Source of the DNA: JBMFOH01 sp049969715 [NCBI: bacterium]
GTDB lineage: Bacteria; DUMJ01
Length of the DNA stretch: 64,000 nucleotides
Direction of reading: 5' to 3'
NCBI GenBank assembly: GCA_049969715.1
Contig: JBMFOH010000001.1
Location: 83,977 to 147,976 of the forward strand
The translations under genes were made by a program, and so were the position numbers. Below the pieces are notes generated by a model, which saw only the letters and a program-made list of their open reading frames with translations, searched no databases and was not told where the DNA came from. This document shows positions 297 through 53,218 of this stretch, piece after piece. Positions within the stretch are counted from its first letter, which is position 1, and the number at the start of each line of letters is the position of its first letter.

Positions 297-1583
297 TTAC
301 AGATCTCCTTTTGATACAAGTTTTACAAATAGGGGCATAAGCTGATGCCCTAAGAGCCTTCCTAGGGAACCTTTTGCACACTCCTTCTCTGAGTATTGTG
401 TAGTTCCATCGCTAGAGATCTTATCTCCTGAAACGATAAGAGGTACAGGGTCATCTGAATGTGCCTTTAGTGTGCAAGGGGTAGAGTGGTCAGCTGTTAC
501 TGTGATTACTACATTAGAAAGGTCTATTTTTGGCAAGAGATTCCCGAAAAAGTACTTATCTATATTAGAGATACTGTCCCTTTTTTCTAGGGCTTTTCCA
601 TCGTGACCTGGGACATCAGGTCCTTTGAGATGTATATAGAGGGCATCGAATTTATTAAGAGATTGAATTGCTTTTTCCGCCCTTAGAGGATAATCTATCT
701 CAGGATTTCCAGTTGGAGTAGGCAGTTCTACTATCTCCATACCGGTCAACATTGCTATCCCCATTTCTACAGGCATCTCGGCAAAACAGCCAAACCTTAA
801 GCCAAATAGATTCTTTATATCAGGGAATTCTGGTAACCTATCTCCTGCATCCCTAGTAAGTATTACATTCCCTATCATCTTACCTTGAGACTTTCTCTTT
901 CTATTGACCTCTGATTCATTCAATACAAGATGACTCTTCTGGACAAATTCGTTTGTTAGGTCGGCTGCCCTCTTTGCCTCTATACTGCTATCTAGAGGCT
1001 GGCAGACCTGAAGGTAGGGCTCAAACTTTTCTTTAGCTACCCCGAAGTATCCAACTTTATCATACGCTGGATCAGTATTGGTGATATTAGCTGATAGAGG
1101 ACCATCTAGACATCTTATCCATAAGACACCCCTATGTTCTACAGTACTAATGAACTTGAATATGGCAGGATAGCTAGTAAGTTTTACCTTACTATTGACC
1201 TCTTCTGCCAACAGTTTTGCCTCCTCAGTAGATAGGTCTCTACCTGCTCTTCTATCCACAAGACGCCTATCTTCATCCATCGTAGCGAAATTAACCCTAA
1301 AGGCAAGGTCTCCTGGTTTTAAATCAATTCCAGAGGCAAAACATTCCAATGGACCTCTACCTGTATAATACTTTTCTGCCTCATATCCTAATATACTTAT
1401 AACCGCTATGTCAGACTCTGGTGCTATCCCTGGTCCTACTGTATCTACAATGCCACTTTTCCCACTTTTTGCTAGTCCATCCATATAGGGAGTGTCGGCT
1501 GCCTCAAGGGGAGTCTTTCCTCCTAATTCAGGGCAGGGTCTATCACCTAGCCCATCCAGTACTATATAGAGTAGTTTATACAC
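297..1583 (-). CDS. apgM: 2,3-bisphosphoglycerate-independent phosphoglycerate mutase, archaeal type
   Basis: Interconverts 3- and 2-phosphoglycerate in glycolysis and gluconeogenesis in the cytoplasm. The product has the alkaline-phosphatase-superfamily landmarks of the ApgM branch: VLDGLGDRP near the N-terminus (metal-binding Asp), PESDIAVISILGY with the nucleophilic Ser, a DVPGHDG motif and VTADHSTPC near the C-terminus. Length (about 428 aa) is usual for ApgM, which is shorter than bacterial GpmI. Two in-frame GTG codons compete, at 1592 and 1583. AGAGGGGTGAT overlaps the first and is well spaced for the second, so 1583 is preferred. It follows the MFS gene on the same strand. Confidence 0.95.
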   Translation of the reverse strand: MYKLLYIVLDGLGDRPCPELGGKTPLEAADTPYMDGLAKSGKSGIVDTVGPGIAPESDIAVISILGYEAEKYYTGRGPLECFASGIDLKPGDLAFRVNFATMDEDRRLVDRRAGRDLSTEEAKLLAEEVNSKVKLTSYPAIFKFISTVEHRGVLWIRCLDGPLSANITNTDPAYDKVGYFGVAKEKFEPYLQVCQPLDSSIEAKRAADLTNEFVQKSHLVLNESEVNRKRKSQGKMIGNVILTRDAGDRLPEFPDIKNLFGLRFGCFAEMPVEMGIAMLTGMEIVELPTPTGNPEIDYPLRAEKAIQSLNKFDALYIHLKGPDVPGHDGKALEKRDSISNIDKYFFGNLLPKIDLSNVVITVTADHSTPCTLKAHSDDPVPLIVSGDKISSDGTTQYSEKECAKGSLGRLLGHQLMPLFVKLVSKGDL

Positions 1584-1655
1584 TGTTATCACCCCTCTAA
1601 GAATAACTTTTAATAATCCAATCTATTATAACATCTAATAAAGAAATTTTAAAAG

Positions 1656-2828
1656 TTATTCTATCTTAAACATAGTTATTAGGACTACAGCAATCAATGA
1701 GCATACCGCTCCAAAAAAGAACGGTGTGGATGGAGATATCTTATCCCATAGTAAACCAGCAATAGCACTTGCTGGTATTGCCAGTATCCCTACTGAGGCA
1801 TTATACAATCCAAATGCAGTTCCCCTTATTTTTTCATCTACCAGATGTACTACTAAGGATTTCGCTACTCCTTCTGTAGTTGAGTAGTATACCCCATAAA
1901 TGATGTATAGGACCCATATATGCCAGGGCAACCTCGCTATGGCAAAACCTATATAGGTAATAGCATATATAAGCCATCCCAACCTTATTACATTAACTCT
2001 TCCGATCTTATCCGAGAGGACCCCACTTGGGAGAGAGAGCAATGCATAGAATAGATTAAATATAGCTATGATTACTGGTATTGTTGTAGGCGATACCCCT
2101 ACGTTTTCAGCTCTTAGGATCAAAAAAGCATCACTACTGTTTCCTAATGTAAAGACCATCATTCCAATAAAGAACAAAAGGAACTTGCCTTTAAGTAGTG
2201 ATGGGTCTATCTTGAATCCTGTTCCTACCTTTTCTCCTACCCTTTCTTTTACAAATAAACCTATGAGGATTATTGTTACAAAGGCAACAAGTCCACCGAT
2301 TATAAATATATATCTATATTTCATCAATCCAAATGAGGCGAACCTTATCAATAGATATGTAGCTATTAATGGACCAACAAATGAACCTAATGTATCTAAC
2401 ATCCTCTGAAGACCAAAGGCAAAACCTGTTCTAGATTTACTAGATGACTTTGCTACAAGTGCATCTCTTGGGGCATCCTTTAATCCCTTCCCAACTCCAT
2501 CTAACAACCTAAGACCTAAAACACTACCTGCCCCTGTTGTTAAGAATAATAGGAGTCTTCCTATAGCAGACAATAGGTATCCAATGAAAACGATAGACTT
2601 CCTTTTACCTAGTTTATCAGAGATGATTCCAGAGAGGATTTTAAATATACTCACTACAGTGGTCATACTCCCCTCAATGAGGCCTATAGTCTCTTTACTT
2701 AGACCTAGTACCTGGGCGTAGAATGTGGGGAGTATAGGCGATATCATATCCTGGCTTAGACCACCAAAGAAGGCGACCCATCCCAATACAATAATATTTT
2801 TTGTTCCTTCTTTATTGTTCCCTTTCAA
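1656..2828 (-). CDS. MFS transporter (12-TM efflux-type)
   Basis: Integral membrane carrier of the major facilitator superfamily with about 12 hydrophobic segments. The inter-helix 2-3 motif (SGIISDKLGKRK) and its second-half counterpart (SGVLSDKIGRVN) are clear. GVGKGLKDAPRDALVA is shared almost exactly with the second MFS gene at 49859-50992, so the two are paralogues. The substrate cannot be read from sequence; the family is usually annotated as drug or sugar efflux. The start is TTG with GGAG nine bases upstream; the ATG nearer the ribosome site is out of frame. It lies downstream of the GH3 gene, but a terminator separates them. Confidence 0.9.
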   Translation of the reverse strand: MKGNNKEGTKNIIVLGWVAFFGGLSQDMISPILPTFYAQVLGLSKETIGLIEGSMTTVVSIFKILSGIISDKLGKRKSIVFIGYLLSAIGRLLLFLTTGAGSVLGLRLLDGVGKGLKDAPRDALVAKSSSKSRTGFAFGLQRMLDTLGSFVGPLIATYLLIRFASFGLMKYRYIFIIGGLVAFVTIILIGLFVKERVGEKVGTGFKIDPSLLKGKFLLFFIGMMVFTLGNSSDAFLILRAENVGVSPTTIPVIIAIFNLFYALLSLPSGVLSDKIGRVNVIRLGWLIYAITYIGFAIARLPWHIWVLYIIYGVYYSTTEGVAKSLVVHLVDEKIRGTAFGLYNASVGILAIPASAIAGLLWDKISPSTPFFFGAVCSLIAVVLITMFKIE

Positions 2829-2851: not shown

Positions 2852-2886
2852 AAAAATAGACTTCTACCTAATTTTAGGTAGAAGTC
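2852..2886 (-). terminator. Rho-independent terminator after the GH3 gene
   Basis: A perfect 12-bp inverted repeat (GACTTCTACCTA / TAGGTAGAAGTC, loop of four) at 2859-2886 is followed on the minus strand by TATTTTTATTATA. It sits between the GH3 stop and the MFS start, so it would end or attenuate GH3 transcripts. Confidence 0.85.
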
Positions 2887-2934
2887 ATCATCCCTTTAAG
2901 GGATATTTCTGTTAGGCTTCATCACCTGTGAAAA

Positions 2935-5284: not shown

Positions 5285-6244
5285 TTACCTAAACATACCA
5301 TTAACCTTCTTATCCTCATATAGGAGCTTATCGGCTACCTCTATTATCTCTCTCTTTGTCTTTCCATCTTTAGGAAAAGAGGATAAACCCATTGAGACAC
5401 CTATCTCATTTATTTCCATCGTTACCTTATTCTTTATCCTTTTAAATATAGAGTTAATATTAATACTAGAAGGATTTAAGAATATTATAACAAATTCGTC
5501 TCCACCGTATCTAAAACCTCTATCAATACTTCTTATAGAGTGGGTCAATATATTAGCAAATGCTTTAAGGGCTTCATCCCCAGCCTGATGTCCATAAGTA
5601 TCATTAAATCTTTTAAAACCATCGAGATCACACATAAGAAGGATAAATGGTTTTCCTATTTTTATTAGCTCATCCATATATTCCTCGAGAGCTCTCCTGT
5701 TATAGAGCCCTGTAAGATGGTCTCTTTTAGTCGATTCCTCAAGAGATGAAGTGTAATCTAGATAGAGTTCCTGATTTCTCGTTATAAGCGTAGCTAATCC
5801 ATATGATAGAATAAAAACTCCGATGGTATAACTAAGACCAGGAATATCTGACCTTATAATCGAATATATAATAAGGAACACAAAGAAGAAAATGTTAAGA
5901 CTGAATACTTTTGTTGCCCAGATAGGGTTTCTTTCTAGCCCATAGGTAATGATAGGTACTAGAAGGAAAAAGAGAAATGGACTTCTCTCCATACCAGTAT
6001 TATATATAATAGAGATATTAAGTAAGTGCCCTAACATAGGCATAATCCAAGGGTTTTGAGATGTCCTTACAGAGAGAAGATAAACTATGGCAAAAAGAAT
6101 AGCAAAGAACAGAGGGAGCAATATAGATGTTCTCCCCTTTGCCATTAAAAGATAAGACGGGATAAATGCAATAACCATTAGTACCCTAATGTTAAAGGCA
6201 ACCTTCTTTATCCCTTCACCTAAGTTATGGTAATTCATTTCCAT
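5285..6244 (-). CDS. Membrane-bound diguanylate cyclase (GGDEF)
   Basis: Makes the second messenger cyclic di-GMP from two GTP. Residues about 15-155 form five to six transmembrane helices of no recognised sensor family. A GGDEF domain occupies about 165-319. The active-site motif YGGDEF (247-251) is intact, and RSID at 238-241 lies five residues before it, matching the product-inhibition I-site RxxD. An active, feedback-inhibited cyclase is therefore predicted. No good ribosome-binding site precedes the ATG at 6244, so the start is uncertain. It is divergent from the LacI-type gene. Confidence 0.92.
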   Translation of the reverse strand: MEMNYHNLGEGIKKVAFNIRVLMVIAFIPSYLLMAKGRTSILLPLFFAILFAIVYLLSVRTSQNPWIMPMLGHLLNISIIYNTGMERSPFLFFLLVPIITYGLERNPIWATKVFSLNIFFFVFLIIYSIIRSDIPGLSYTIGVFILSYGLATLITRNQELYLDYTSSLEESTKRDHLTGLYNRRALEEYMDELIKIGKPFILLMCDLDGFKRFNDTYGHQAGDEALKAFANILTHSIRSIDRGFRYGGDEFVIIFLNPSSININSIFKRIKNKVTMEINEIGVSMGLSSFPKDGKTKREIIEVADKLLYEDKKVNGMFR

Positions 6245-6284
6245 CTAGAATAGCACAACATCTAGTGATTTTTCAACTCTTATG

Positions 6285-6293
6285 TGATATCAT
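6285..6293 (+). promoter_or_regulatory. Extended -10 promoter of the lacI-hpt operon
   Basis: TG-A-TATCAT at 6285-6293, with no convincing -35 box, is placed 24 bases before the LacI-type ATG. It is the only promoter-like element in the 72-base divergent gap on this strand. Confidence 0.5.
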
Positions 6294-6316
6294 AGAAAGA
6301 AAAAGGAGTCTTTGGG

Positions 6317-7342
6317 ATGGTTTTCAGAAAGAAGGCCAGTATATTGGAAGTAGCCGAGAAAGCAGGGGTCTCTCCGGCTACCGTCTCTCGTGTATTAAAT
6401 AAGACTGCTAGGGTAAGCCCTCAGCTGACTAAAAGGGTTCTCTCTGCAGTAGAGGAGTTAAGATATGCTCCGGACCCATTTGCCTATGGAATGAGGACAA
6501 AGAAGACCCGTACTATTGGTCTTATTATTTCTGATATTACTAACCCATTTTTTCCTGAAATGACGAGAGCAATAGAGGATTATGCCCGTAGCAGAGGGTA
6601 CTCATTAATCTTATGCAATACAGGTAGTAATATCGAAAAAGGGAAGAGCTATGTACACCTATTACTTAATAGAGGAGTAGATGGTCTTATCTTTACTTCT
6701 CTAAGGATAGGTAAGGAGGAGGTGCTTTCTATTTTAAAGGAGAATATTCCGTGTATTCTTGTCGGCCGTAGGGCAGAAGGGATAGAGGGTCTAAGTTACA
6801 TCGTAACTGATAACTATAAGGGAGGAATGATTGCAGCAGATTATCTCTTTGAATTAGGTCATAGAAGATTTGTCCATGTTACTGGCACCTTAGATAACTC
6901 TACCGGGAAGGAAAGATTGAATGGGTTTATAAATAGGTTAAAGGGGAGGGGAGTAAAGGAGGAAGATATCTATATCATAAAGGGTAACTTTAAGATGGAG
7001 AGTGGATATAAAGCGGCGAAAGAGGTCTTAAAGTTAAAACCATTACCTACTGCCATATTTTTCGCTAATGATGCGATGGCTATAGGGGCATTGCAGAGGT
7101 TTTGGGAAGAGAGGATAATAATTCCAGAAACCTTTTCTATTGTTGGCTTTGACAATATAAAGGTATCTAGCCTTGTAGCCCCACCACTTACTACTATAAG
7201 TCAAGAGATATATAAGCTTGGAGAATTGGCTGCTCAACGTCTTATAGGATTTATAGAAGGGGATAAAGAGAAGGTAAAAATTGTCCTTGAGCCTACTTTG
7301 GTAGAGAGGAAATCTTGTAGGAGGGTTTTAGATGAAACTTAG
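6317..7342 (+). CDS. LacI-family transcriptional regulator
   Basis: DNA-binding sugar-responsive repressor. The N-terminal helix-turn-helix and hinge are canonical (ILEVAEKAGVSPATVSRVLN, about 8-27), followed by a periplasmic-binding-protein-like effector domain (about 60-335). The start has AAAAGGAG eight bases upstream. It is first in an operon with an epimerase and a polyol-type dehydrogenase, the likely targets of its effector logic. No LacI-type palindromic operator could be found in the short upstream gap, so autoregulation is unproven. The effector sugar is unknown. Confidence 0.93.
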   Translation: MVFRKKASILEVAEKAGVSPATVSRVLNKTARVSPQLTKRVLSAVEELRYAPDPFAYGMRTKKTRTIGLIISDITNPFFPEMTRAIEDYARSRGYSLILCNTGSNIEKGKSYVHLLLNRGVDGLIFTSLRIGKEEVLSILKENIPCILVGRRAEGIEGLSYIVTDNYKGGMIAADYLFELGHRRFVHVTGTLDNSTGKERLNGFINRLKGRGVKEEDIYIIKGNFKMESGYKAAKEVLKLKPLPTAIFFANDAMAIGALQRFWEERIIIPETFSIVGFDNIKVSSLVAPPLTTISQEIYKLGELAAQRLIGFIEGDKEKVKIVLEPTLVERKSCRRVLDET

Positions 7343-41279: not shown

Positions 41280-41404
41280 TTTTATCCCTCCTAACGAAAT
41301 AATAGACTAATAGAAACGCCTGTAGAACCTTACTAGTATTTCATTCTATGGACTTCTAATATGCTCCATAAAGGTGTCAACCTCCTTTCCTCGAAGGAAT
41401 TGAC

Positions 41405-41570
41405 ATATTCTGATAGGCAGGTCTCCTGGCTCCTGGCATCGACCTTGTGCCTTCCCAGTTTCCCAGTGGCATATACAAGGCCCTTTAAGTCAGTTACAGT
41501 AGCGGGACTGCAGTGGATTTTCACCACTTTCCCTTTTCATCTCTGATAAGAGAACCTATCAGATTATGTA
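41405..41570 (-). promoter_or_regulatory. Cobalamin riboswitch
   Basis: On the minus strand a closing stem TCTGATAGG (41563-41555) pairs exactly with CCTATCAGA (41417-41409). Just inside the 3' arm is the B12 box AGCCAGGAGACCTGCC (41431-41416), and the conserved GCCACTGGG element occurs upstream of it. The roughly 160-nt size is typical. It lies 126 bases before btuF and would turn the salvage operon down when cobalamin is abundant. The rest of the 339-base gap (41280-41618) holds its promoter and a short hairpin with an AAAGGAGG motif; no gene is seen. Confidence 0.95.
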
Positions 41571-41579
41571 CTAGAGAGT

Positions 41580-49835: not shown

Positions 49836-49868
49836 AGTGCTGTAGGAAGAAAACTTTCCTACAGCACT
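49836..49868. terminator. Hairpin between convergent GH38 and MFS genes
   Basis: AGTGCTGTAGGAA and TTCCTACAGCACT form a perfect 13-bp stem with a 7-base loop. One arm overlaps the last codons of the MFS gene. Neither side has a proper T-run, so it may end or protect both transcripts. Confidence 0.6.
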
Positions 49869-50992
49869 ATCATCATTCCTAGTGCTGCTACTATCCCCAT
49901 AATTCCACCAAAATAGAACGGAGCACTAGCTCCTAGAAGATTCCAGAGTAATCCTGCAATAGAAGATGCCGGTAATAGCCCTACTCCTTCTAGGGTGGCA
50001 TGAAGCCCGATCAGAGTAGCCCTTGTTTCTACTGGGGCTATATCCGATATTAAAGCCTTTTGCACTCCTTCAGTGAGCCCTATATAGATTCCATAAAGAC
50101 CAAAGAGTGTCCAAAGATAAGAAGCCTTAGTAACTATTGCAAATCCAAGATAGACAATCCCATAGAATACATATCCTATAACGATCAGTCTCTTTCTGCC
50201 AATTCTATCTGAAAGCCTTCCAGCAGGATATGCGAATACCATATATACAAGATTATAGGCAAGATACAATAGAAGGACTGTTGCATCGTTGAAGCCTAAA
50301 TTCTTTGCCCTAAGGAGTAGAAATTGGTTGGAAGAATTTCCCAGTGTAAATAGAAAGGTCACTATGAGAAAGCCTTTGAGTCTTTTATCTAGACCCGACC
50401 ATTTTAGTTTTGGTCTTGAATTACTAGATACCTTTGCCTGTTTCCCCTCTCTTGCAAAGAATAATACCCCGATGCCAAGGAATGCAGGTACAAGTGAATA
50501 CAGGAATACCCTAGAATAGTCCCCTGAGAATCTTGTAAAGAAATAATAGGCAAGTATCACGCCGATAGCTGCCCCAAGGGTATCCATAGTCCTATGGAGA
50601 CCAAAAGCTCTTCCTCTCTTTGTTTGTTCTGTTGAGTCCGCTATCAATGCATCTCTAGGAGCGGTTCTTATACCTTTACCAAATCTATCAATCCATCGTC
50701 CGGCAAATACCATCCCCCATGAGCGTGATAGATAGAGGAATACTTTGCCTATAGTAGAAGACCCATATCCCAGTATTGCTAGAGGCTTTCTCTTTCCTAC
50801 TAGATCAGATATATATCCAGAAAAGACCCTCAATAGGCTGGCAGTACTTTCGGCTACCCCTTCTATTATCCCAACTATAGCTGGGCTAGCTCCAAGTTTT
50901 GATACTAAATATAGAGGGATAAGAGGATAGACCATCTCAGTGCTTATATCGGTAAGAAAGCTTACAATACCTAGAATTATAACATTAAACAT
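49859..50992 (-). CDS. MFS transporter (12-TM efflux-type), third gene behind the fluoride riboswitch
   Basis: 377-aa paralogue of the MFS gene at 1656-2828, with the same signature KGIRTAPRDALIADS and loop motifs SGYISDLVGKRK and AGRLSDRIGRKR. Substrate unknown. GGAGGG precedes the ATG. It lies 37 bases behind the HEAT-repeat gene on the same strand. A TATAAT in that gap (51024-51029, minus strand) could give it its own promoter, but no terminator intervenes, so readthrough from the fluoride-controlled promoter is possible. Confidence 0.9.
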   Translation of the reverse strand: MFNVIILGIVSFLTDISTEMVYPLIPLYLVSKLGASPAIVGIIEGVAESTASLLRVFSGYISDLVGKRKPLAILGYGSSTIGKVFLYLSRSWGMVFAGRWIDRFGKGIRTAPRDALIADSTEQTKRGRAFGLHRTMDTLGAAIGVILAYYFFTRFSGDYSRVFLYSLVPAFLGIGVLFFAREGKQAKVSSNSRPKLKWSGLDKRLKGFLIVTFLFTLGNSSNQFLLLRAKNLGFNDATVLLLYLAYNLVYMVFAYPAGRLSDRIGRKRLIVIGYVFYGIVYLGFAIVTKASYLWTLFGLYGIYIGLTEGVQKALISDIAPVETRATLIGLHATLEGVGLLPASSIAGLLWNLLGASAPFYFGGIMGIVAALGMMIVL

Positions 50993-51029: not shown

Positions 51030-51407
51030 CTACTTTTTCAGAATTTTTTCTGCCTCGAAAGCGGCTTTTCTCACTGTTACATATGGATGAGATTTTGCCC
51101 TTTCTATCACATCCAGAGCCCTTACACCGCCAATCTTTGCTAGGGCTATTACTGCTTCTCCTGCTATGTATGGGTCTTGCTCTTCTATTGCTGCAGCTAG
51201 GGCATCTATAGCCTGAGGGTTGCCTATTTCCCCAAGGATATATGCTGCTCTTCTAGCTGTAAAGCCATCTTTCGACTTTAAAGCAGAAATGAGCTTTTCT
51301 AAATATGTATTATTTTCTCCTAGATTAGCCCTACAGAAAGGGCATATTTTTGTATCCTTAGGGATTTCTTCCCAACAATTTGGGCAGAAGTAATGTAATT
51401 TACCCAT
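51030..51407 (-). CDS. Zinc-ribbon plus HEAT-repeat protein
   Basis: 125 aa. Residues 8-26 are a zinc ribbon with two CPxC knuckles (CPNC and CPFC). Residues about 38-125 are two to three HEAT repeats (ARRAAYILGEIGNPQAIDAL and AGEAVIALAKIGGVRALDVI) of the PBS-lyase type, a protein-protein interaction scaffold. It is eight bases downstream of the DUF6062 gene and so shares its fluoride-responsive leader. No enzymatic role can be inferred. Confidence 0.85.
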   Translation of the reverse strand: MGKLHYFCPNCWEEIPKDTKICPFCRANLGENNTYLEKLISALKSKDGFTARRAAYILGEIGNPQAIDALAAAIEEQDPYIAGEAVIALAKIGGVRALDVIERAKSHPYVTVRKAAFEAEKILKK

Positions 51408-51415
51408 AATAAATT

Positions 51416-52039
51416 TTACACCTTCTTCTTCCCTACTAATTTCTCTATTGCCTTGTATCGAGCTCTATATTCTTTTCCCCTTGGCTCATTTTGGAATCTA
51501 TAATCACTCTTACGAATAATCTCTGAAAGATCAAATGATAACTCTTCTAGCCTTTGTTTTTCTAATTCTATTAGAAATTTTTTAGTCTCTTCGTTATTGG
51601 CAAGATTAATACACATCTTTAAATGAGGATAGCATAATCCATCGGAGGCTATATACTTTTGATAAAATGCATCCTCTTGCAGGTATTTTAAGAAAACCTC
51701 TACATATCTTTTACTAGCATTAGCTTCTACATTACACACTGGACAAGAAATTTCAGGATCTAAAGGATTACCTATATATTTGATATGATGGTCTACCAAG
51801 CGTTTATATATGATGGCTGTCCCTAAAACTTCCTGATAAGAATATAAAAGCCATGAGTGCAAATTACAAAAACCTCCACTTTTTACGATTCTTTCTGCCG
51901 TATGAGAATCATTTACATATTCATAGAGGAGAGATTTTACATAGCTATGTACAACCTCTTTTGTAAGGGTACATATAGGGCAACCCTCTCCTTCTAATGC
52001 ATCACATAACTTTGAATATAATACATCCTTCTCCTTCAT
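51416..52039 (-). CDS. DUF6062 family Cys/His-rich protein
   Basis: 207 aa, soluble. Two similar modules each have a CPxC knuckle followed about 35 residues later by CxxH: CPIC (20-23) with GGFCNLH, and CPVC with DGLCYPH. This suggests two metal sites per chain; the family has no known function. The ATG has GGAGGGG nine bases upstream. It is the first gene after a fluoride riboswitch and terminator, so its expression is predicted to rise with fluoride. The family name is from memory of the pattern. Confidence 0.83.
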   Translation of the reverse strand: MKEKDVLYSKLCDALEGEGCPICTLTKEVVHSYVKSLLYEYVNDSHTAERIVKSGGFCNLHSWLLYSYQEVLGTAIIYKRLVDHHIKYIGNPLDPEISCPVCNVEANASKRYVEVFLKYLQEDAFYQKYIASDGLCYPHLKMCINLANNEETKKFLIELEKQRLEELSFDLSEIIRKSDYRFQNEPRGKEYRARYKAIEKLVGKKKV

Positions 52040-52059
52040 TTATTAGCCCCTCCATTAAA

Positions 52060-52098
52060 AATCAAAAAGCTCCTACTAGAACTAATCTAGTAGGAGCT
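52060..52098 (-). terminator. Terminator of the fluoride riboswitch expression platform
   Basis: A 13-bp stem (AGCTCCTACTAGA / TCTAGTAGGAGCT, 5-base loop, 52068-52098) followed on the minus strand by TTTTTGATTTTT. Its first arm begins with AGCTCC, the same bases that form the riboswitch pseudoknot, so ligand binding would prevent the terminator. Confidence 0.9.
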
Positions 52099-52143
52099 AT
52101 CAGCCCTGCTTAAGGCAAATACTTTGGACGAGCTCCATCGTCC
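52086..52143 (-). promoter_or_regulatory. Fluoride riboswitch (crcB motif)
   Basis: Minus strand from 52143: stem GGACG/CGTCC encloses the loop ATGGAGCT, then AAAG..., a small GCCT/GGGC hairpin, the conserved GCTGATAGCTCCTAC, and the terminator. Loop GGAGCT pairs with AGCTCC as the defining pseudoknot. This matches the fluoride aptamer pattern (GGnCGAUGnnGnnC...GCUGAUGnCnCCUAC). The join after the first stem is a few bases longer than in examples I remember. The leader controls the DUF6062 gene at 51416-52039. Confidence 0.87.
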
Positions 52144-52149
52144 AAAAAG

Positions 52150-52178
52150 ATTATACTATTCTTTTCTCTCTTCGTCAA
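52150..52178 (-). promoter_or_regulatory. Sigma-A promoter of the fluoride-riboswitch operon
   Basis: TTGACG (52178-52173) and TATAAT (52155-52150), 17-base spacer. The predicted start site coincides with the first GG of the aptamer. It is the best complete promoter in the window. Confidence 0.85.
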
Positions 52179-52234: not shown

Positions 52235-53218
52235 ATGGAGATCAAGATTTTAGGACAACCTCTATCTAATATACCCTGGGAGGATAAGCCTAAGGATTGT
52301 AAAGAGATTGTCTGGCGTTCTAAGAGAAATCCCATAATTAGAAGGAATCAGGCTAAGGATGCAAATAGTATCTTCAATAGTGCTGTGGTTCCCTTTGAAG
52401 ACGGGTTTGCTGGAATCTTTAGAGTAGATGATAGGTCTAGGTCTATGAATATAAGAAGGGGGTTCTCTAAAGATGGAATCAATTGGGAGATTGATGATAA
52501 ACCTATTGATTTTATTCAAGAGACTAGAGACCCTTTAATAAGTGAGTATAAGTATGATCCGAGGGTTACATTTATAGAAGATAGGTATTATATCACTTGG
52601 TGTAACGGTTATTATGGGCCTACCATAGGGGTTGGCTATACTTTCGACTTTGAAAGGTTTTATCAGATTGAGAATGCATTCCTTCCATACAATAGAAATG
52701 GAGTCTTATTTCCAAGAAAGATCAATGGAAAGTATGCAATATTAAGTAGGCCGTCTGACACTGGGCATACTGCTTTTGGGGATATATTCTACAGTGAGAG
52801 CCCAGATATGATATATTGGGGGCGTCATAGGCATGTGATGTCTAGAGGTTACACTAGTTGGCAATCGTTAAAGATAGGAGCTGGACCTACACCTATTGAA
52901 ACCAGTGAGGGTTGGCTACTTATATATCATGGAGTATTGTTATCCTGTAATGGCTATGTCTATAGTTTTGGAGCAGCTTTATTAGATTTAGAAAAGCCAT
53001 GGGTCGTTAAATATAGGGCAAAATCTTATCTACTTTCTCCCCAAGAGATCTATGAATGTGTAGGAGATGTCCCAAATGTAACGTTTCCCTGTGCCACTTT
53101 ATATGATGCTAATACAGGAAGACTTGCAATCTATTATGGTGGGGCAGATACTGTTGTATGCCTTGCCTTTAGTTATATACAAGATATAATAGAGTCTCTA
53201 GTAAGAGAGGTTTACTAA
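52235..53218 (+). CDS. GH130 beta-mannoside phosphorylase
   Basis: Phosphorolysis of beta-1,4-mannosyl linkages, giving mannose 1-phosphate. The five-bladed propeller signature is clear: [28 protein letters not shown] first blade, [16 protein letters not shown], and [18 protein letters not shown]. About 327 aa. ATG at 52235 with GGAGGGAG; the frame remains open upstream to 52124, but that extension lies in promoter DNA. The exact acceptor (glucose, GlcNAc or mannose) is undetermined. The last 21 bases overlap the convergent EAL gene. Confidence 0.92.

Follow-up and report, generated by a model that had tools for sequence, protein, structure and literature searches.

A predicted fluoride riboswitch preceding DUF6062, HEAT-repeat, and MFS carrier genes, a gene set that recurs behind fluoride aptamers in other bacterial genomes

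RESULTS

Anatomy of the W1 leader

The window analyzed here is a 64,000-nt stretch of contig JBMFOH010000001.1 from the bacterium JBMFOH01 sp049969715. Its minus strand carries a leader, named W1, that is predicted to be a fluoride riboswitch (crcB motif; RF01734) and is followed by genes for a DUF6062 protein, a zinc-ribbon HEAT-repeat protein, and a carrier of the major facilitator superfamily (MFS), termed MFS1. A weaker fluoride-like element, W2, precedes a second carrier, MFS2. The features of both loci are listed in Table 1. A first-pass annotation of this DNA had described W1 as a complete promoter-aptamer-terminator unit on the minus strand with its start site on the aptamer. Its layout was confirmed by the 11/12 consensus matches of the promoter, the full pairing of P1 and pseudoknot, and the overlapping terminator.

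Table 1. Positions of the features at the W1 and W2 loci, counted from the first base of the window
Feature	Position	Strand	Basis
Sigma-70-type promoter, TTGACG-17-TATAAT	52150..52178	-	11/12 consensus matches; consensus basis only
Predicted fluoride (crcB-motif) aptamer W1	52093..52143	-	RF01734, model R1, pair count
W1 intrinsic terminator, 13-bp stem 52098-52068 plus TTTT	52064..52098	-	Fold and scan
DUF6062 protein, 207 aa, two CxxC...CxxH motifs, all-alpha model	51416..52039	-	PF19538, E 1.1e-25
Zinc-ribbon HEAT-repeat protein, 125 aa, 8 nt past DUF6062	51030..51407	-	HEAT_2, 3.2e-14
MFS carrier MFS1, 37 nt past HEAT	49859..50992	-	MFS_1, 5.3e-48
Weaker fluoride-like aptamer W2	2881..2926	-	RF01734 21.5 bits, E 0.0019 (801 bases); R1 18.9 bits, E 1.5e-4
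W2 terminator, overlapping the W2 pseudoknot strand	2859..2886	-	Fold
MFS carrier MFS2, behind W2	1656..2828	-	76% identity over 377 residues to the MFS of the G316 operon
2,3-Bisphosphoglycerate-independent phosphoglycerate mutase, after MFS2; co-control by W2 only putative	297..1592	-	PF10143, 1.7e-48

The -35 element TTGACG (52178-52173) and the -10 element TATAAT (52155-52150) are separated by a 17-nt spacer. Since a promoter scan of the window returned 13 sites, as compared to the 8.0 (standard deviation, 3.4) expected, the case for this promoter is based on its quality and placement and not on the number of sites. Transcription would start approximately 7 nt past the TATAAT, at G52143, the first base of P1, in agreement with the start site proposed previously. 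All five pairs of P1 (GGACG/CGTCC, 52143-52139 with 52130-52126) and all six pairs of the pseudoknot (GGAGCU/AGCUCC, 52136-52131 with 52098-52093), including G8-C47, are intact, and the P1 loop contains an AUG at 52138-52136. P2 is formed by GCCUU/AGGGC (52116-52112 with 52107-52103) and is followed by UGAU (52102-52099), and the linker between P1 and P2 is AAAGUAUUU (9 nt, 52125-52117). W1 keeps all bases that do not vary among 37 relatives (A6, U7, G8, G36, U38, A40, U41, and C47); we take these position numbers to follow the T. petrophila structure. The 5' arm of the terminator includes the 3' strand of the pseudoknot, AGCTCC. The terminator alone folds at -21.8 kcal/mol, as compared to a mean of -7.17 for shuffled sequences (z = -5.46), and none of 200 shuffles equaled it.

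W1 was also compared with 102 other aptamers, whose pairs were parsed in the best-pairing register, a procedure that is biased toward pairing and leaves the start of P2 crude in some rows. Before P2, W1 has A-U and not the conserved A-A; the second A is likewise absent in 14 of the 102 aptamers, in 4 of which the linker was parsed too short. The possibility that A42 points to a variant ligand was rejected, given that the U13-A42 end pair of the pseudoknot occurs in 29 of the 102.

Covariance-model support for W1

With RF01734, W1 obtained 28.1 bits (E = 5.8e-6, 351 bases), which is below the gathering score of 34, and a default Rfam search of the whole window consequently lists only a cobalamin riboswitch. 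The value of 34 bits is a curator's threshold and does not correspond to any structural feature, and the RF01734 model cannot score the pseudoknot. In a background test on 10 whole genomes (~34 Mb, 150 candidates scored per genome), all RF01734 matches other than two over the cut-off had 23.4 bits or less, and the 28.1 bits of W1 are therefore not due to chance. A model named R1, built from 37 other fluoride aptamers with the window excluded, assigned 36.6 bits to W1 (E = 2.9e-10) and 18.9 bits to W2, and the next match in the window had 8.5 bits. The 37 aptamers were hand-cut from RF01734 matches; several rows are closely related, and one (L080) was cut overlong. In this set, 99.7% of the 370 cells of P1 and the pseudoknot were paired, 9 of the 10 pairs showed two-sided changes, and none of 500 shuffles reached this level of pairing. 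The RF01734 search that the first-pass annotation had proposed as a check thus formally fails, and the call is restored by the pseudoknot and the R1 score. W1 resembles RF01734 members in P1, the pseudoknot, P2, the invariant bases, and a terminator that overlaps the pseudoknot strand; unlike typical members, it scores below gathering and has a 9-nt linker in which one conserved A is replaced. By its anatomy, W1 looks like an ordinary fluoride riboswitch that is predicted to bind fluoride.

Recurrence of the aptamer-DUF6062 pairing

To quantify this pairing, we considered a DUF6062 gene as linked when a same-strand fluoride aptamer was present within 1.5 kb upstream of it. Frames were called with a simple script and not with a gene finder. 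The handles used below denote genomes (G), contigs (C), and loci (L). Sample 1 comprised 299 genomes of one phylum, namely, the phylum of G004, which carries the Clostridia locus L004. PF19538 was detected in 37 of these genomes and matches to the window protein in 31 (union, 38 genomes), and at least 101 of the 299 genomes had a fluoride aptamer over gathering. The initial aptamer list was cut off below E 2e-6, and a second search at E ≤ 0.01 covered the 22 genomes in which this list placed no aptamer close to DUF6062. As a result, 13 of the 45 DUF6062 genes were linked, 10 of them within 300 nt, as compared to 0.0075 genes of 45 expected by chance or 0.14 with generous settings. Sample 2 consisted of 61 genomes around G130, of which 23 matched. 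Two of these, G030 and G017, were counted in sample 1, and neither was linked. Each of the other 21 genomes had a linked DUF6062 gene (22/23 genes; 20/23 within 300 nt). Five of these 21 genomes are also in sample 1, and double counting was removed from the combined totals, which were 30 of 63 genes and 29 of 54 genomes linked, with 25 of the 63 genes within 300 nt.

When mapped on a tree of 33 DUF6062 proteins, linkage required 7 changes, 4 of which are forced by well-supported branches, as compared to 11.3 for shuffled labels. The linked state is thus clustered, yet it is spread over divergent branches; it is neither the habit of a single clade nor universal. L043, whose frame fuses the start of enolase to DUF6062, was excluded from the tree.

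Among the unlinked genes, aptamers were found 18 nt downstream (G288), 1,643 nt upstream (G295), and 2,315 nt upstream (one G181 gene); in G157 (twice) and G178, an aptamer was located 2.9 to 6.2 kb away on the other strand. A weak aptamer of 23.0 R1 bits at L113 (7254-7214, minus strand; G075) is located 478 nt upstream of DUF6062. It was missed by Rfam at E 0.01 and is not among the 30 linked genes, suggesting that linkage is undercounted.

Operon layouts and MFS types

The arrangement aptamer-DUF6062-p118-HEAT-MFS, in which p118 designates a type of protein of 112 to 113 aa without Pfam match, was observed in five genomes (G316, G317, G318, G320, and G321). The MFS frame of G318 is interrupted by in-frame stops, the DUF6062 frame of G321 is split, and the aptamer of G320 is ~700 nt before the DUF6062 frame. 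Similar layouts were aptamer, DUF6062, short HEAT frame, and MFS in G323; aptamer, DUF6062, and MFS in G325; aptamer, DUF6062, p118, and HEAT in G263; and aptamer, p118, HEAT, and MFS, without DUF6062, in G130. In G328, the aptamer and DUF6062 are followed by genes for an Na/H exchanger, Usp, a dynamin-like protein, p118, and HEAT, and in G330 by a dynamin-like gene. In G319 and G332, DUF6062 occurs without any of the partners named so far. It precedes Na/H, Usp, and dynamin-like genes in G162 and G287. A CrcB frame is present between aptamer and DUF6062 in G059 and after DUF6062 in G274. Broken or shortened operon copies are thus found at L227 (G318 MFS), L230 (G321 DUF6062), and L231 (G323 HEAT).

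The MFS of the conserved operon is of the MFS2 type. Eight of the nine MFS2-type genes detected in 33 genomes, which share 37 to 41% identity with MFS1, are in aptamer-led operons (G130, G316, G317, G318, G320, G321, G323, and G325); the ninth (G168:C131) is outside the examined set. The MFS of the G316 operon shares 40% identity over 371 residues with MFS1.

Genes up to 3.5 kb downstream were recorded for 102 of the 103 best-scoring aptamers (all but G172:C113, which is located at a contig end). A CrcB-like frame was present in 43 cases and a dynamin-like frame in 21. There were also dense fluoride islands, with 3 to 4 aptamers within ~4 to 11 kb, at L101, L102, L103, L104, and L083. L095 (G295) has a fluoride aptamer, a dynamin-like frame and, 3' of both, a frame (5989-6687, minus strand) in which an N-terminal piece of enolase runs into what remains of DUF6062; this locus looks like a decayed island.

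Genes behind W1

The window DUF6062 protein matches PF19538 with 90.9 bits (cut-off, 27). In contrast to it, four of the five best-scoring PF19538 matches (G232, G004, G276, and G280) come from genomes in which no fluoride aptamer reached E ≤ 0.01. Across 34 aligned DUF6062 proteins, C20, C23, C58, H61, C99, C102, C136, H139, and the DY at 179-180 are invariant or at least 90% conserved. This Cys/His pattern suggests two metal sites in a repeated half, with zinc as the putative metal. The AlphaFold2 model is all-helical (pLDDT, 94.6; pTM, 0.87). Foldseek retrieved no match in the PDB at E ≤ 0.001, and a PDB sequence profile search gave nothing better than E 0.028. The best VIA-align hit, CLASP1 TOG1 (Z = 5.3 over 88 residues), may mean nothing for a helical model. 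The HEAT protein scores 22 bits as a double zinc ribbon, under the cut-off of 27.3, and is 32% identical to its counterpart in a riboswitch operon. A search of a viral collection confirmed no relative of either DUF6062 or MFS1.

The absence of a crcB or CLC-F gene behind the switch, as noted in the first-pass annotation, was borne out: the three downstream genes have no CRCB or CLC Pfam match at E 0.001, and four CrcB queries had no match in the window at E 1e-3, where CLC was not sought and no family scan of all open reading frames was made. Similarly, queries for MutS-like, Na/H, Usp, enolase, dynamin-like, p118, and DUF190 proteins had no match in the window at E 1e-3.

The second element W2 and MFS2

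In W2, the 3' half, the pseudoknot (GAAG/CUUC; 5 of 6 pairs), and the terminator that overlaps it are good. The promoter scan upstream of W2 found none. We tested whether the phosphoglycerate mutase behind MFS2 is a fluoride gene, an idea for which no support was obtained beyond the window: relatives were present in 3 of 20 genomes, at 32 to 38% identity, and none shares a contig with a listed aptamer. Between MFS2 and the mutase (window 1581-1665) there are an inverted repeat, AGAATAACTTTTAA / TTAAAAGTTATTCT, and a TATAAT-like sequence, and this stretch may separate the mutase from W2.

DISCUSSION

Riboswitches assign ligands to genes of unknown function, and the interest of this locus resides in the genes behind W1, the riboswitch itself being ordinary. 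We consider it very likely that W1 is a transcription-terminating ON fluoride riboswitch that controls an accessory fluoride-stress operon. RNA polymerase would start on P1. When Mg-bound fluoride is present, the GGAGCU/AGCUCC pseudoknot would be held and AGCUCC kept out of the terminator, and DUF6062, HEAT, and possibly MFS1 would be transcribed, whereas the 13-bp terminator would form when fluoride is absent. Such a mode of action is consistent with the description of crcB-motif terminators as overlapping the motif, with the ligand predicted to raise expression (Weinberg 2010, PMC2864571). DUF6062 and HEAT, with their Cys/His metal motifs, and MFS carriers, presumably acting in efflux, would then form part of the fluoride regulon in many genomes of the sampled phylum, along with CrcB, enolase, Na/H exchanger, Usp, MutS-like, and dynamin-like genes. 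DUF6062, HEAT, and their companion proteins thus probably belong to bacterial fluoride defense.

The first-pass annotation had treated the gene set as an oddity. Since the same genes recur behind fluoride aptamers elsewhere, it is not a misfit, and that earlier interpretation was partly supported overall. The known regulon, as given in PMC11139923, includes Fluc/CrcB, CLC-F, Na/H antiporter, pyrophosphatase, enolase, formate hydrogen lyase, and HAD, and mutS is among the genes tied to the motif in PMC2864571. In accordance, other aptamers of our sample precede CrcB, CLC, Na/H exchanger, Usp, enolase, and MutS-like genes. In contrast, the W1 unit consists of DUF6062, HEAT, and MFS and contains none of the listed genes. 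The terms "DUF" and "major facilitator" are absent from the main text of PMC11139923. Our literature searches found no paper naming DUF6062, no related paper for fluoride riboswitch plus MFS, as judged by the listing, and, among the matches listed, no paper joining a fluoride riboswitch to HEAT repeat or dynamin. The riboswitch class is known, and the aptamer-DUF6062 association is likely new. Its recurrence links the fluoride response to DUF6062, a partner of 112 to 118 aa, the zinc-ribbon HEAT protein, and one MFS subfamily, so that four unstudied families become testable candidates for fluoride defense in operons that are not led by an exporter. As compared to the operon of G316, G317, G318, G320, and G321, the window has the same aptamer class and gene order, but it has no p118 match, MFS1 is in the place of the MFS, and MFS2 is ~47 kb away behind W2. 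In the window, the components of the common operon appear to be divided between two switches, and MFS1 occupies the usual position of MFS2. The presence of a second fluoride-like element before MFS2, a type found in the conserved operons, was counted in favor of a fluoride operon behind W1.

Several observations weigh against this interpretation. Apart from the RF01734 score of W1 below gathering, its linker has a U at position -3 before P2, where 88 of the 102 other aptamers have an A, and P1 of W2 is weak (3/5 pairs). Furthermore, 33 of the 63 DUF6062 genes have no aptamer within 1.5 kb upstream on their own strand, and several DUF6062 branches are without any aptamer. The tree gives the window DUF6062 no supported place, and its four nearest rows (L019, L021, L023, and L020) have no linked aptamer. 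Finally, eight relatives of MFS1 with 67 to 70% identity are in loci without a fluoride aptamer; four of these loci (L238-L241) were searched with R1, and the listed aptamers include none near the remaining four.

Because of these relatives, MFS1 is the least secure member of the operon. Of the regulated genes named in the first-pass annotation, DUF6062 and the zinc-ribbon HEAT gene were retained, and MFS1 likely but not certainly belongs with them. It is quite possible, if not the option that we favor, that MFS1 has its own promoter and is outside the fluoride unit, the fluoride-related MFS being MFS2 behind W2. The 37-nt gap between HEAT and MFS1 holds a TATAAT-like sequence, and the MFS2 type occurs in riboswitch operons of eight genomes whereas the eight closest relatives of MFS1 do not; however, MFS1 is on the same strand as HEAT, and a consensus scan of the gap showed neither terminator nor promoter.

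The view that the riboswitch is real and that DUF6062 is a passenger of mobile or clustered fluoride-resistance islands is unlikely in our opinion. It would account for the loci that are dense islands with 3 to 4 aptamers, for the fluid gene order (Na/H, Usp, and dynamin-like genes in G162 and G287; CrcB in G059 and G274), and for the broken or shortened copies, but an aptamer is at most 300 nt upstream of 25 of the 63 DUF6062 genes, including divergent branches. Somewhat less likely is a scenario in which the MFS2-type carrier is a further exporter of fluoride defense that replaces CrcB/CLC-F in the window, with DUF6062 and HEAT as metal-binding partners. Its cargo may then be fluoride or the metabolites that accumulate when fluoride blocks enolase.

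We consider it very unlikely that W1 is a decayed or ligand-shifted crcB-like RNA and its leader a constitutive or differently triggered attenuator. The Rfam score below gathering and the linker without the conserved A would fit decay, but the invariant bases are kept, P1, pseudoknot, and terminator are fully paired, R1 gives 36.6 bits, and the genes of W1 recur in the G316-G336 genomes behind aptamers with Rfam scores of 38.6 to 53.4 bits. A reading of the hairpin as a pyrG-type attenuator, based on a PyrG_leader match at 52058-52135 (RF02371, 37.3 bits, E 0.0013), was rejected, because the match falls short of the gathering score of 65, its base pairs are those of the terminator hairpin with the GCUCC/GGAGC arms, none of the three downstream genes is pyrG, and the GGAGCU complement in the P1 loop and the covarying aptamer would be left without explanation.

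Other features of the window

A tRNA scan of the window found none. A GH130-type gene (52235-53218, plus strand; the start at 52235 is our reading) diverges from W1, and the upstream region is common to both. The cobalamin riboswitch (41399-41574, minus strand) scored 117.9 bits and is followed by genes that, judged by eye, resemble those for a BtuF/FecB-type binding protein and for cobalamin synthesis.
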